A DNA stretch of 43,550 nucleotides from positions 1 through 43,550 of IMG/VR virus record IMGVR_UViG_3300038557_000049; one strand, 5' to 3'. The position numbers and the translations under genes were made by a program. Positions 2,679 through 24,809 of the stretch are shown here, piece by piece. Position 1 is the first letter of the stretch; each line of letters opens with the position of its first letter. This DNA comes from a virus. The notes beneath the pieces are model-generated. The model had not been told where the DNA came from and did no database searches. It saw only the letters and a list, made by a program, of their open reading frames with translations.

Positions 2679-3109
2679 AGCCCGATCGGTTCGGCGATTT
2701 CCTGATGCGCTTTCTCGGGGTCAGCGAGATGCTGGACGGGGCCATCAAGCCGGTTGCGCACGGCTCGGCGCCTCCCGCGGCGGGTGCGCTTGACGAGGCG
2801 CGCCGCCATTTGTTCGAACTGCGCGGCGAGGCCCGCCAACTGATCGTCCTGCTGGGCGAGGAAACGGCGACAGAGGCAAAAGAGCCTGCTGCTCCGGCCA
2901 TGCCGATCCTCAGCCATGGGCGCAGGCCGTCCTGGTGGCAGGATGTCGAGGTCGCGCTCCTCGTCACGCGTCTCCATCGCCTCGTGGAGATCAAACAAGC
3001 TGTCGCGCTGTGTCGTGAGCGCTTTGGAAGAGCGCGCGCGCACAGCCTGTCGTCGCTGCATCGCTACTGGATGAAGCTGGACGCGGTGGCCCGGGAGAGC
3101 CGCCGGTGA
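2675..3109 (+). CDS. Hypothetical early protein upstream of the transposase
   Basis: A 144-residue soluble protein starting with GTG in a GTGA overlap with the ParB-like gene and ending in a GTGA overlap with the transposase gene, so the three are translationally coupled. The first half is Ala-rich and helical; the C-terminal 50 residues (DVEVALLVTRLHRLVEIKQA through SSLHRYWMKL) are basic and look like a small helical DNA-binding module, as if from the N-terminus of a transposase or a regulator. No family is recognised. Its position next to muA suggests an accessory transposition or regulatory role; that is inference. Confidence 0.75.
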   Translation: MKPDRFGDFLMRFLGVSEMLDGAIKPVAHGSAPPAAGALDEARRHLFELRGEARQLIVLLGEETATEAKEPAAPAMPILSHGRRPSWWQDVEVALLVTRLHRLVEIKQAVALCRERFGRARAHSLSSLHRYWMKLDAVARESRR

Positions 3110-5295
3110 AGCTCTGGCTGACCTCCTCCGAAATCGCGGATCTCGCGCTGCCCGACATGCCGACGACGCGCCAGAACGTCGTCGAACTGGCCCGGCGCGA
3201 GGACTGGGCCCGCTTCTCGGCATGGTGCCGTCAGCGCGCCGGCCGAGGCGGCGGTCAGGAATATCATATCCGCCTGCTGCCGGTGGCCGCACGCATCGCC
3301 TATCTCGGTCCGCAGGCCGGGCAGGCTGAGACGTCGGCGCCGGCGGAGGCCCTGCAGGCCGCCCCTGAGCCCCCGCCCGCTGCCACGCGCGCCTCGACGC
3401 TGCAGCTCGACGCCCGGCTCGCCGTACTCGGCGCTCTCAAGGCCTTCGTCCGCTCTTCGGAGATGAAGCAGACCCTGGCGATCAGCTATTTCGTCGACCT
3501 CTACAATCTCGGCCGCATCGAAATCCCGGCATGGGCGCATGCGGTGCTGCCGCGGCTCTCTACCCGGACTGCGCAGCGCTGGCTCTCAGCCTCCCGCGAT
3601 GGTGAAACCGATCGGCTGGCCGTGGACCGGGGAGCCGGCAGGCGCGGCCAGGGCGTGCTCGACGCCGCGTTCGATGGCGAGATCAAGCATTTCGCCATCG
3701 CGGTGCATTCGCTCAACGACCTCTACACCGCCAGCCAGATCTACAAGGCGGTAACGGGCGAGTTCGGCGCTCGACTGACCGAGGCGGGCCTGCCGCTCCC
3801 TGGCCAGCGCGCATTCGAGATCCGCCTCGGCGCCTGGAAGCAGGAATACGCCGCCGGCCTGCTCAAGATGACGGACCCAGACGGCTTCCGATCGAAGATG
3901 AAGGTCTCCGGCACCTTCGATTTCATGGCGCCGCACCTCAATGCGCTCTGGCAGATCGATGCGTCGCCGGTCGACGCCATGTGCACCGATGGCCGCCATT
4001 CCGTCTATGTCTGCATCGACTACTGGTCGCGCCGGATCATCCTGTTCATCTCTAAGACGCCGCGCTCCGAGGCCGTGCAGCTCCTCATGCGCAAGGCCAT
4101 TCTGGCCTGGGGCGTGCCGGATGCGGTCAAGACCGATAACGGCTCCGATTTCGTCGCTCGCGCCACGGTGCGTCTCTTTGCCCGCTTGCAGATCGATCCG
4201 ATCCGCTCCGCCGCCTTCTCGCCCTGGCAGAAGGGCGTGGTCGAGCGCAACATCAGGACCTTCCAGACGGATTGTGCCCGGATGCTGCCGGGGTTCGTCG
4301 GACACAACGTCGCCCAGCGCAAGAAAATCGAAGGTCGCAAGGCCTTCTCGCAGCGCCTTGGCCAGGAGAATGCCGCCTTCAACGTCACCATGACGGGAGA
4401 GGAGCTGCAACGGATCTGCGACGTCTGGGCGGCCGACATGTACGCCCATCACGAGCATCGCGGCATCCGCAACATGACGCCCTTCGCCAAGGCGGCGTCC
4501 TCGACCCATCCGATCCGCACGGTCGATGCCGACGCGCTGGCCGCGCTGCTGATGCAGGCGCCGAAGGGCGACGGATATCGCACGGTCGGCAAGCGCGGTG
4601 TCCTGGTCGACGAGTTCTACTACCAACCCATGGGCCTGCTGCCCGGCGAGCGCGTCTTCGTGACGCTCGATCCTGCGGACAAGGGCACGATCTGGCTCTT
4701 CGCCGATGAGACCATGGATCGGCCGCTCGGCCGCGCGGTCAACGGCGAGCTCGCCGGCGTCGACCCGGTCGAACTGCAGGCGCAGCGCAAGGCCATGCAG
4801 GCGCGCGTCGTCGAGGAGCAGATGGCCGAGGCGAAGGCGATGCTCCGGTCGAAACGCGTCACGGATCGCACGGTGCTCGATCATCGCATGGCCGAGGCCG
4901 CAGCCCGGGCCGGCAACCTCGTCGCCTTCCCGCCGCGCAGCGAAATCCACAGCACCCCGGCGCTCGAAGTCGGCGCGGAGCTTGCCGCTCTGCGTCGGGG
5001 CGAGGCGCCTGTCGCAGCCCCGCTGTCGGACGCCGCCGCCGCGCGACATCGCGAGCTGCTGGAGGAGGCTGCCTCTTCGGCCACCCCGGCCAAGGTCACG
5101 CCGCTGCGCCAGCAGGAAACACCGCGGCAGCGATACCGCCGCGCGCTCGACATCGAGGCAGCCATCGCCGGCAGCGAACCTGTGGAGACTGCCGATGCCG
5201 TTTGGCTCGGCTCCTACCAGACCAGTGCGGAATACCGGGCCGAGAAAGCCCTCGACCCGCTCCACCAGGAATTTGGAGAGGCGGCGTTGCGTTAG
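3106..5295 (+). CDS. A: Mu-type DDE transposase (MuA-like)
   Basis: A 729-residue transposase that nicks the phage ends and joins them to target DNA. Domains in order: an N-terminal Mu-type winged helix (about 3-66, starting LWLTSSEIADLALPDMP) for end binding; further DNA-binding helices to about 250; the RNase H-like catalytic core with Asp285 (QIDASP), Asp344 (KTDNGSDF) and Glu380 (GVVERNI), 35 residues separating the last two; the Mu-type beta-barrel domain (about 500-570); and a helical basic C-terminus (about 575-729) where MuA contacts MuB. All three catalytic residues are present, so it looks active. Start is GTG 3106 in a GTGA overlap. Its expected substrates are 22-bp sites like those at 42257-42300. 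Confidence 0.96.
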   Translation: MKLWLTSSEIADLALPDMPTTRQNVVELARREDWARFSAWCRQRAGRGGGQEYHIRLLPVAARIAYLGPQAGQAETSAPAEALQAAPEPPPAATRASTLQLDARLAVLGALKAFVRSSEMKQTLAISYFVDLYNLGRIEIPAWAHAVLPRLSTRTAQRWLSASRDGETDRLAVDRGAGRRGQGVLDAAFDGEIKHFAIAVHSLNDLYTASQIYKAVTGEFGARLTEAGLPLPGQRAFEIRLGAWKQEYAAGLLKMTDPDGFRSKMKVSGTFDFMAPHLNALWQIDASPVDAMCTDGRHSVYVCIDYWSRRIILFISKTPRSEAVQLLMRKAILAWGVPDAVKTDNGSDFVARATVRLFARLQIDPIRSAAFSPWQKGVVERNIRTFQTDCARMLPGFVGHNVAQRKKIEGRKAFSQRLGQENAAFNVTMTGEELQRICDVWAADMYAHHEHRGIRNMTPFAKAASSTHPIRTVDADALAALLMQAPKGDGYRTVGKRGVLVDEFYYQPMGLLPGERVFVTLDPADKGTIWLFADETMDRPLGRAVNGELAGVDPVELQAQRKAMQARVVEEQMAEAKAMLRSKRVTDRTVLDHRMAEAAARAGNLVAFPPRSEIHSTPALEVGAELAALRRGEAPVAAPLSDAAAARHRELLEEAASSATPAKVTPLRQQETPRQRYRRALDIEAAIAGSEPVETADAVWLGSYQTSAEYRAEKALDPLHQEFGEAALR

Positions 5296-22525: not shown

Positions 22526-22930
22526 ATGGCGTTGACCAAGCCCAGAGACACCATCGAGCGCGGCCGTGACCTGCTCGTCATCCCCGTCGCTGCGTCGACC
22601 ACCATCTACCAGGGCGCGCTCGTCGCCGTGAACGCCTCCGGCTATGCCGTGCCCGGTTCGGTCGCGACGACGCTGAAGGCCGCCGGCCGCGCCGAGGAGA
22701 CGATCGACAACGCATCCGGCAGTGCCGGCGCGCTCTCGGTCAAGGTCAAGCGCGGCGTCTTCAAGTTCAAGAACTACGCCTCCGATGCCTGCGTCCAGGC
22801 CAACGTCCTGGGCGACTGCTTCATCGTCGACGACGAGAGCGTGGCGAAGTCGGACGGCTCCAGCGCCCGCTCCAGGGCCGGCAAGATCCTCGAGGTCGAG
22901 GCGACCGGCGTCTGGGTCGAGATTTCCTGA
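22526..22930 (+). CDS. Probable capsid decoration protein
   Basis: A 134-residue beta-rich protein (LLVIPVAASTTIYQGALVAV, FKFKNYASDACVQANVLGDC, KILEVEATGVWVEIS). Size, composition and position between scaffold and major capsid fit a capsid cement or decoration protein of the kind seen in Mu-like phages with 120- to 140-residue beta-sandwich proteins. Family assignment is not certain. GAGGAG lies 8 nt before the ATG. The tRNA gene follows after 5 nt. Confidence 0.78.
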   Translation: MALTKPRDTIERGRDLLVIPVAASTTIYQGALVAVNASGYAVPGSVATTLKAAGRAEETIDNASGSAGALSVKVKRGVFKFKNYASDACVQANVLGDCFIVDDESVAKSDGSSARSRAGKILEVEATGVWVEIS

Positions 22931-22935
22931 CAATC

Positions 22936-23010
22936 GGTGGAGTGGCGCAGCGGTAGCGCGCCGGGCTCATAACCCGGAGGTCGGCGGTTCAAATCCGCCC
23001 TCCGCAACCA
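22936..23010 (+). tRNA. tRNA-Met (CAT), initiator-like
   Basis: A complete 75-nt cloverleaf with encoded CCA. Acceptor GGTGGAG (22936-22942) pairs with CTCCGCA (23000-23006) except at 1-72, where G faces A; T3-G70 is a wobble. D stem GCGC/GCGC (22945-22948, 22956-22959) with loop AGCGGTA; anticodon stem CCGGG/CCCGG with loop CTCATAA, anticodon CAT at 22968-22970; variable AGGTC; T arm GGCGG/CCGCC with loop TTCAAAT; discriminator A. The unpaired 1-72 position and the three GC pairs in the anticodon stem are hallmarks of bacterial initiator tRNA, whereas C11-G24 in the D stem is the elongator form. It sits between decoration and major capsid genes on the coding strand. Confidence 0.93.
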
Positions 23011-23034
23011 GAAACCTGATCGCGAGGACGGTTC

Positions 23035-23928
23035 ATGATCATCAATTCCAGCAACCTGCGGATGCTGACCACCGGCTACCGTGCCAACTTCGTGGCCGGC
23101 CTCGCCGCTGTCACGTCGATGTGGGGCCGCTTCGCCACCGAGGTCCCGTCGACCACGGCCGAGGAGCTCTATCCTTTCCTGAACCAGATTCCCGGCATGC
23201 GGAAATGGGTCGGCGAGCGCCAGCTGAAGAACGTCAGCACCGGCGACTATCGCCTGGTCAACGAGGACTGGGAGGACACCGTCAAGGTGACCCGCAATGC
23301 GATCCTCGACGATCGTTTCGGCATCTTCTCGCCGCTGATGACCATGCTCGGCGATGCGGCCGCCCGCCAGCCGGACGAGCTCATCTTCCCCGCCTTCGCC
23401 AAGGGCTTCAGCACGAACTGCTTCGACGGCCAGTACTTCTTCGACACCGACCATCCGGTGCTCGATGCCGATGGCTCGGTCATCTCGGTCTCGAACATGC
23501 AGGCCGGCGCCGGCGCGGCCTGGTACCTGCTCGACCTCACCAAGGCCGTGAAGCCGATCATCTTCCAGAACCGGCAGAAGCCGGTCTTCGCCGCCATGGA
23601 CAATCCCGACGACGAGTCGGTGTTCATGCGCAAGGAGTTCGTCTACGGCGCCGACAGCCGCAATACCGCCGGTTTCGGCTTCTGGCAGACCGCCTTCGGT
23701 TCGAAGGCGACGCTCGACGCTGCGAATTTCAAATCGGCTTACGACGCCATGACGCTGTTCAAGAAGGACTATGGCGCGCCCCTGGCGATCACGCCGAACG
23801 TTCTCCTGGTCGGCCCGACGAACCGCTCCGCAGGCGAGACCATCGTCGCGAAGGCCAATCTGGCCGGTGGCGAGTCCAACCTCGACTACAAGCGCGTCGA
23901 GCTGGTCGTCGCGCCCTGGCTCGGCTGA
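23035..23928 (+). CDS. T: Major capsid protein (Mu gpT-like)
   Basis: A 297-residue major head subunit of the Mu gpT family. Landmarks: the start MIINSSNLRMLTTGYRANF, the E-loop region LNQIPGMRKWVGERQLKNV (about 49-67), DTVKVTRNAILDDRFGIFSP, FFDTDHPVLDADGS (about 140-153) and the C-terminal VELVVAPWLG. It forms the icosahedral shell. The ATG lies 25 nt after the tRNA CCA, with GAGGAC about 6 nt upstream. Confidence 0.95.
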   Translation: MIINSSNLRMLTTGYRANFVAGLAAVTSMWGRFATEVPSTTAEELYPFLNQIPGMRKWVGERQLKNVSTGDYRLVNEDWEDTVKVTRNAILDDRFGIFSPLMTMLGDAAARQPDELIFPAFAKGFSTNCFDGQYFFDTDHPVLDADGSVISVSNMQAGAGAAWYLLDLTKAVKPIIFQNRQKPVFAAMDNPDDESVFMRKEFVYGADSRNTAGFGFWQTAFGSKATLDAANFKSAYDAMTLFKKDYGAPLAITPNVLLVGPTNRSAGETIVAKANLAGGESNLDYKRVELVVAPWLG

Positions 23929-23990: not shown

Positions 23991-24254
23991 ATGGATCCGA
24001 AAAACAAGTCGAAGGCCGGCGCTGCCGAAGCCGCCGAGCAGGACATCGATCGCGACCGCCGGAAGCCCGGCAGCGGCCGCGTGCTCGTCGCCGCAACGGC
24101 GAAGGAAGGCCGGCGTCGCGCCAGTCTCGAATTCAGCCAGGCCGGCACCGTGATCGAGCTCGGCGAAATCAGCCAGGAGCAGTGGGAACAGATCCTCGAC
24201 GATCCGCAGCTCACGCTTCGCCCGGCGAGGGAAACGGCCGAACCGGCCGCCTGA
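23991..24254 (+). CDS. FluMu N-terminal-like (Mu gp35-like) protein
   Basis: An 87-residue protein with a charged disordered start (KNKSKAGAAEAAEQDIDRDR) and a small domain GSGRVLVAATAKEGRRRASL through EQILDDPQLTLRP. This matches the short domain called FluMu N-terminal, found in a gene after the major capsid of Mu-like phages. The role is thought to be in the head or head-tail joint. GTAGGAGA upstream is a good ribosome binding site. Confidence 0.78.
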   Translation: MDPKNKSKAGAAEAAEQDIDRDRRKPGSGRVLVAATAKEGRRRASLEFSQAGTVIELGEISQEQWEQILDDPQLTLRPARETAEPAA

Positions 24255-24383
24255 CGAGATACCCCCGGAAGGGTCCGGCTCCGCTCGCATGCTGCGCCGC
24301 CGGTTAGGTCCAGCGGACCCGGACATCCCAAGCGATAGATCGGCCGCCGGCATGCGGGGCGGCCGATCGCCGTGGAAGTGATC
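24255..24383 (+). promoter_or_regulatory. Intergenic region with an 11-bp hairpin before gp36
   Basis: A gap of 129 nt in an otherwise packed operon. It holds a perfect 11-bp stem, GATCGGCCGCC (24338-24348) and GGCGGCCGATC (24358-24368), with a 9-nt loop, ending 4 nt before the GGAAG that serves the ATG at 24384. No T tract follows, so it is not a terminator; it could slow decay or modulate translation of the connector genes. Confidence 0.5.
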
Positions 24384-24809
24384 ATGGCCTACGCCACCCG
24401 CACCGATATCGAGGCGATCTACGGCGCGCGTCACCTGGAGACGCTCGTGCCGGCCGATGTCGACATGGACGTCGCCGTCGCCAACGCGATCGAGTCGGCG
24501 CAGGCGATGATCGACCCCTATCTTCGCAAGCGCTACGTTCTGCCGATCGTGGTGGCGACGCCCCCGATCCTGAAGCAATGCGCCATCGATATCGCCTGCT
24601 GGCAGCTCGCGCCGGCGGCCGACCGCATGTCGGAGGAGATCGAGAAGCGCGCCAAGCTGCGGCTGGCCTTCCTCCTGGATGTGTCGAAGGGCAATGCCGA
24701 AATCGTCGAGTTGACGCCGGTCGCCGGTTCGGACGGCGGTGGCGTCGTCTCCGGCGGCGGCGCCTTCTTCTCGGCCGAGCCGCGGCGCTGGTCGGGAGAG
24801 CTCGAATGA
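24384..24809 (+). CDS. DUF1320 family connector protein (Mu gp36-like)
   Basis: A 141-residue head-completion protein of the DUF1320 family: it starts with AYATRTDIEAIYGARHLETL and shows the family helices AMIDPYLRKRYVLPI (about 43-57) and CAIDIACWQLAP. The C-terminus is a Gly-rich loop and FFSAEPRRWSGELE. It probably forms the ring between portal and tail. ATG 24384 is preferred over GTG 24372 because GGAAG precedes it at 6 nt. It overlaps the next gene by ATGA. Confidence 0.87.
   Translation: MAYATRTDIEAIYGARHLETLVPADVDMDVAVANAIESAQAMIDPYLRKRYVLPIVVATPPILKQCAIDIACWQLAPAADRMSEEIEKRAKLRLAFLLDVSKGNAEIVELTPVAGSDGGGVVSGGGAFFSAEPRRWSGELE

Follow-up and report, generated by a model that had tools for sequence, protein, structure and literature searches.

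The stretch of DNA analysed here (the window, 43,550 nt) is an IMG/VR virus contig, and a single tRNA gene was located in it by ARAGORN, a Met(CAT) tRNA that occupies exactly positions 22936-23010 on the plus strand. The gene lies among head genes of the same orientation. Upstream, a gene for a decoration, or virion structural, protein (22526..22930, +; phrog_1731, E 4e-44) ends with a stop codon at 22928-22930, 5 nt before the tRNA. Downstream, a 24-nt leader (23011..23034, +) with a Shine-Dalgarno-like GAGGAC at 23024-23029, an element also present in relatives that lack the tRNA (for example, L003 and L046), precedes the gene for a Mu gpT-like major capsid protein (MCP; 23035..23928, +; phrog_371, E 3e-113). 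The MCP gene is followed by a small gene with a weak match to FluMu_N (23991..24254, +; Pfam PF17891, 23.7 bits, just below the cut-off of 25.8) and by a Mu Gp36-like gene (24372..24809, +; PF07030, E 2e-20); the interval between these two (24255..24371, +), an alternative slot for the tRNA, is free of tRNA in the window. Outside this region, a Mu-type transposase A gene is found at 3106..5295 (+; phrog_310, E 7e-100), and a gene for a ParB-like protein (1773-2678) directly precedes the transposase genes. Besides the transposase, decoration and capsid genes, the window codes for a DNA transposition protein, a portal, a minor head protein and a protease, and GemA, Mu Gp27 and Mu Gp36 were recognized by Pfam. 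The Mu-type transposase, transposition protein B, GemA and Mu-type head genes are thus all present, and the virus, which the preliminary description had taken for a transposable phage, is a Mu/D3112-like transposable phage of alphaproteobacteria. Among 20 window proteins scanned with Pfam, no phage-coded formylase or deformylase was found.

The RNA at 22936-23010 matches Rfam RF00005 over its full length with 63.8 bits (cut-off 29, E 1e-11) and scores 97 bits with covariance model R1. It is 75 nt long, and direct reading of the sequence reveals an acceptor stem (GGTGGAG/CTCCGCA) with an unpaired G1.A72 and a U3.G70 wobble, a D stem (GCGC/GCGC) with C11:G24, an anticodon stem (CCGGG/CCCGG) that closes a CUCAUAA loop, a T stem (GGCGG/CCGCC), A73 and an encoded CCA. 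The preliminary description, which had proposed a complete cloverleaf with CCA on the coding strand, 5 and 24 nt away from the decoration and capsid genes, was therefore accurate, and its concern that a covariance model might score poorly is answered by the Rfam match. The unconstrained minimum-energy fold of the single strand is not a cloverleaf, so the cloverleaf was judged on covariation instead (see below).

Two features, a mismatch at 1:72 and three G-C pairs in the anticodon stem, are the major marks of a bacterial initiator tRNA, and elongators initiate once they are given both; G2:C71, C3:G70 and A11:U24 assist formylation but are not major features (PMC7949028). The window tRNA has the CAU anticodon, no Watson-Crick pair at 1:72 and three G-C pairs at G29-G31:C39-C41 (GGG/CCC), as expected for tRNA-fMet and as initially proposed. 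Of the formylation helpers, G2:C71 is present, while C3:G70 and A11:U24 are absent and replaced by U3.G70 and C11:G24. Since both of the missing pairs assist formylation, formylation of this tRNA may be weaker.

To see how the tRNA is distributed, relatives of the MCP were drawn from viral contigs, GTDB genomes and GenBank phages, which yielded 223 loci with distinct MCP centres, and tRNAs at these loci were detected with ARAGORN and with a covariance model derived from 13 of the copies. An intact tRNA lies beside the MCP gene in 17 of the 223 loci and a relic in five; all 22 are initiator-type and on the coding strand, and every intact copy was called Met(CAT). The figure of 17 in 223, which agrees with the earlier statement that transposable phages rarely carry tRNAs, is a lower bound because some loci stop short of a slot, and it applies to loci selected by MCP similarity. 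Because all MCP-side tRNAs in the relatives are of this type, the initiator reading is stronger than when it was first proposed. Scans of about 135 whole viral contigs revealed no intact tRNA of any other type in the interior; tRNAs for Arg (L009 contig), Gln (L214), Ser (L206) and one extra Met (L238) occur at contig ends and are probably host flank. The GenBank phages RC1, RS1, ThpS-P1, PeaS-P1 and RhkS_P1 encode MCP relatives but have no nearby tRNA.

All of the tRNAs are within about 25-800 nt of the MCP gene and use only two slots. In slot A, between the decoration and MCP genes, three intact copies were found: that of the window, that of L023 (also L004-L006 and L047; Chelatococcus) and that of L066/L034. 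Slot B, between the FluMu_N gene and gp36, one gene past the MCP, harbours 14 (L007, L014, L112, L118, L122, L185, L197, L217, L224, L236, L317, L331, L335 and L344). The gene order at slot B was read for viral contigs from open reading frames and their starting residues; for the four intact copies from bacterial genomes, which are outside the model-building set, strand and position past the MCP (about 260-550 nt) were read. Many slot B copies begin 5-21 nt past a stop codon, and those of L118, L185, L217 and L224 are further off.

These positions bear on the proposal that the tRNA serves as punctuation, in which cutting at the cloverleaf would split the head mRNAs and leave the capsid message with a new 5' end at 23011. 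Such a role would fit the 5-nt and 24-nt gaps, the Shine-Dalgarno-like element of the MCP gene downstream of the tRNA, and the short distances from stop codons at slot B, and in the window the 24-nt leader would form the 5' end of an mRNA freed at the tRNA 3' end. However, 14 of the 17 intact copies lie 3' of the MCP gene and would not free its 5' end, and any tRNA would serve as punctuation, yet the initiator type alone is found. Because the isotype is fixed and the position is not, release of a capsid mRNA, as put forward in the preliminary description, is very improbable as the main role.

Comparison of the 17 intact copies revealed that 13 of 21 stem pairs are altered on both sides. Covariation scored 0.457, compared with a mean of 0.137 for shuffled alignments (none of 500 shuffles scored as high), and the score collapses once the partner column is slid by 1-3 positions. 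The cloverleaf of the window is thus not a product of chance. Position 1:72 is unpaired in 13 copies and A-U or U-A in four, and is never G-C. G2:C71 and G30:C40 are found in all 17, G31:C39 in 16 with one G-U, while position 29 varies. Among the lesser features, C3:G70 is present in 16 of the 17 copies, A11:U24 in five and C11:G24 in eight. The last pair, which had been noted as an elongator trait, is indeed present in the window but is not odd within this group. Judging from the alignment, the stems accumulate compensated changes, whereas the initiator signature is maintained; as natural variants, the copies indicate that evolution keeps 1:72, 2:71, 30:40 and 31:39, and gives up 11:24 and 29:41.

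The tRNA is absent in about 90% of the surveyed relatives, and its presence or absence requires at least 13 state changes on an MCP tree (FastTree). The two nearest relatives of the window, viral contig L002 (MCP identity of 95%) and the Bosea sp. BK604 prophage L022 (89%), both hold broken slot A copies. In L002, a hairpin-bearing insert replaces the 5' side of the anticodon stem, and in L022 the T loop is lost. The slot B relics comprise L113, with an insert close to the T arm, L251, with a shortened anticodon loop, and L199, of which only the 3' part remains. In the L002 and L113 relics (L002:3923-4033 and L113:4411-4520), the inserts are some 35 nt long, lie at different sites of the tRNA and each include a perfect hairpin (GATCCGG..CCGGATC and AACGAT..ATCGTT, respectively). 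L251:4676-4750 is an initiator body whose anticodon loop is cut to CTTGG, for which reason ARAGORN names it Gln; it is either a relic or a copy put to an altered use. A putative slot A relic in L007 is weak (25 of 500 shuffles were equally good) and was left out of the counts. The absence and decay in close relatives that the preliminary description had named as evidence against its proposal were thus found in part: the nearest two copies are broken and several other relatives lack the tRNA, but more distant phages (77%, 51%, 46% MCP identity and below) keep intact copies. The gene can evidently be lost and, being patchy and broken in the nearest two relatives, is dispensable.

Five relics against 17 intact genes, the decay next to the window and the repeated state changes would also be expected of a passenger, that is, a captured host initiator tRNA of little effect, tolerated where late transcription is undisturbed and now decaying. 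Random capture, though, should have brought in many isotypes, and the compensatory stem changes together with the protected 1:72 mismatch demonstrate that selection has acted on tRNA function, so that we regard a passenger as improbable.

The likely hosts provide a reference for the initiator features. Of the 39 Chelatococcus host tRNAs, only the two tRNA-fMet have a 1:72 mismatch and G30G31:C39C40. The other CAU tRNAs of the host have a paired 1:72 and no G30G31:C39C40, and an elongator Met or Ile2 identity for the window tRNA was rejected on these grounds. As the proposed comparison with host fMet genes bore out, these genes, which the hosts possess themselves, are the host tRNAs nearest to the window tRNA (81-84% identity). 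That the window tRNA is a recent copy of a host gene was likewise rejected, since GGGCTCATAMCCCG occurs in Bosea and Chelatococcus genomes only within prophage and identity to host fMet is at most 84%. The anticodon stem of the Chelatococcus tRNA-fMet is AGG/CCU (A29:U41), so that at 29:41 the window copy resembles the textbook initiator more closely than the tRNA-fMet of its likely hosts does.

Differences from the host in the D and anticodon stems would also be expected if the tRNA replaced host initiator tRNA that is cut or modified by toxins such as VapC or AtaT, for both of which initiator tRNA is a documented target (PMC7180214). According to one proposal, phage tRNAs escape host tRNases through changes in the anticodon loop (PMC10264068), and position 38 is C rather than A in four of the 17 copies (L023, L236, L197 and L317). 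An arms race is consistent with patchy gain and loss, which would arise because the tRNA is retained only where such toxin systems are met. On the other hand, the CUCAUAA loop of the window tRNA is identical to that of host fMet and carries no change at a cleavage site, phages are reported generally to avoid tRNA-fMet where VapC targets it (PMC10264068), and no such nuclease was tied to these hosts in this analysis. We therefore consider counter-defence rather unlikely, though less so than a passenger.

The presence of a single kind of tRNA in two slots by the MCP gene suggests that additional or substitute initiation capacity is selected for late in infection, in line with the original argument that placement in a structural operon points to more than decoding. 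On the sequence evidence, the reading that we favour (probability of about 0.52) is that the gene encodes a working phage initiator tRNA, made with the late head transcripts and adding to or replacing the host initiator tRNA. Its patchy distribution, the possibly weaker formylation and the fMet genes that the hosts already possess weigh against this reading. The sequences themselves establish the cloverleaf, the initiator features with their conservation, the single isotype and the two slots; from these, we infer a route of transcription, processing, charging and formylation that would benefit the phage. No promoter or terminator of its own was found near the tRNA (sigma-70 consensus only), and for this reason it is taken to be co-transcribed within the late head transcript. 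RNase P and 3' nucleases would excise it, MetRS would charge it via CAU and A73, the unpaired 1:72 with G2:C71 would allow the host formylase to accept it and keep EF-Tu away, and the G30-G31:C39-C40 pairs would adapt it to the P site of the ribosome. Because rate and fidelity of initiation depend on initiator abundance (PMC7949028), the phage tRNA could raise or restore initiation at the peak of capsid protein synthesis. A wider proposition, that alphaproteobacterial transposable phages repeatedly took up initiator tRNA alone, at two capsid-side slots, as a late initiation device that boosts initiation or outlasts attack on initiator tRNA, has in our estimate an even chance of being correct. 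Codon supply is the usual explanation for tRNAs in phages. Since scarce elongation codons are not read by an initiator, phages with an initiator only, at the capsid side, need another reason; late-infection initiation capacity and defence against toxins that hit tRNA-fMet are the candidates. Intact copies reside in prophages of strains with known genome sequences, among them Chelatococcus caeni DSM 103737 (prophage L023), which makes direct testing possible.

A different, tRNA-like element was met in other contigs (L364, L231, L365, L366 (=L196), L367 (=L207) and L368-L375; for example, L231:236-321 and L367:1569-1656, both on the minus strand). It combines a fixed D arm (GGTGTACCCCGATGGGYAAGGGG), a T arm and an acceptor stem of 8-9 bp with a hairpin of variable length, and lacks a normal anticodon loop. 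Most contigs have it in antisense orientation between a gpF-like gene and the next head gene; in L368, L371, L372 and L375, it is close to the MCP gene. Compensatory changes were seen in 17 of 25 consensus pairs, and Rfam matches only one copy, weakly, as tRNA. It may be an RNA element of transposable phages that has not been described before; it is absent from the window. In L224, which also has an intact initiator tRNA 3' of the MCP gene, two to three tandem degenerate tRNA-like units lie between the protease gene and the next head gene (2450-2700).

Phage initiator-type tRNAs as such are already known. What appears to be new is their recurrent and exclusive capsid-side placement in transposable phages, since no description of initiator tRNAs beside the MCP gene in Mu-like phages was found in the open-access papers searched. 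Pattern searches revealed similar tRNAs in further phages, including initiator-like tRNAs with a D stem of the GCGCAG..GTAGCGC type in L029, L031, L036, L038, L040 and others; that of L036 is upstream of the terminase gene, and that of L038 adjoins a head maturation protease gene. The tRNA-fMet of Bosea, Chelatococcus and Camelimonas (L139, L280, L281 and L140; 81-84% identity) share with the window tRNA the CAU anticodon, the CUCAUAA loop, a mismatched 1:72, G30G31:C39C40, A73 and a near-identical 3' half. They differ in having C1.A72, A11:U24, A29:U41, C3:G70 and 77 nt, where the phage tRNA has G1.A72, C11:G24, G29:C41, U3.G70, a shorter D loop and 75 nt. Bosea sp. ANAM02 plasmid pANAM02 carries a cluster of four tRNAs (L305:5696-6068; Ala, Asn, Ile and an initiator-like Met), missing from the plasmid gene table used, in which the Met tRNA has the same odd C11:G24 D stem and an initiator-like anticodon stem, but it has C1.A72 and lies among other tRNAs, outside any phage head operon. 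Among the single tRNAs carried by phiLM21-like prophages of Sinorhizobium meliloti, tRNA-fMet(CAU) accounts for four and Met(CAU) for ten (PMC12429752; KJ743987). These prophages, too, are temperate phages of alphaproteobacteria that have one Met or fMet(CAU) tRNA, but they are tyrosine-integrase phages, and the phiLM21 tRNA, encoded on the opposite strand, is flanked by an HNH gene and the terminase genes and does not adjoin the MCP gene. Finally, the phage tRNAs proposed to evade tRNases (PMC10264068) resemble the present one in being phage-borne and possibly restoring translation under attack; there, however, fMet is generally avoided where it is targeted by VapC, whereas no type other than the initiator was found beside the MCP gene in the phages described here.
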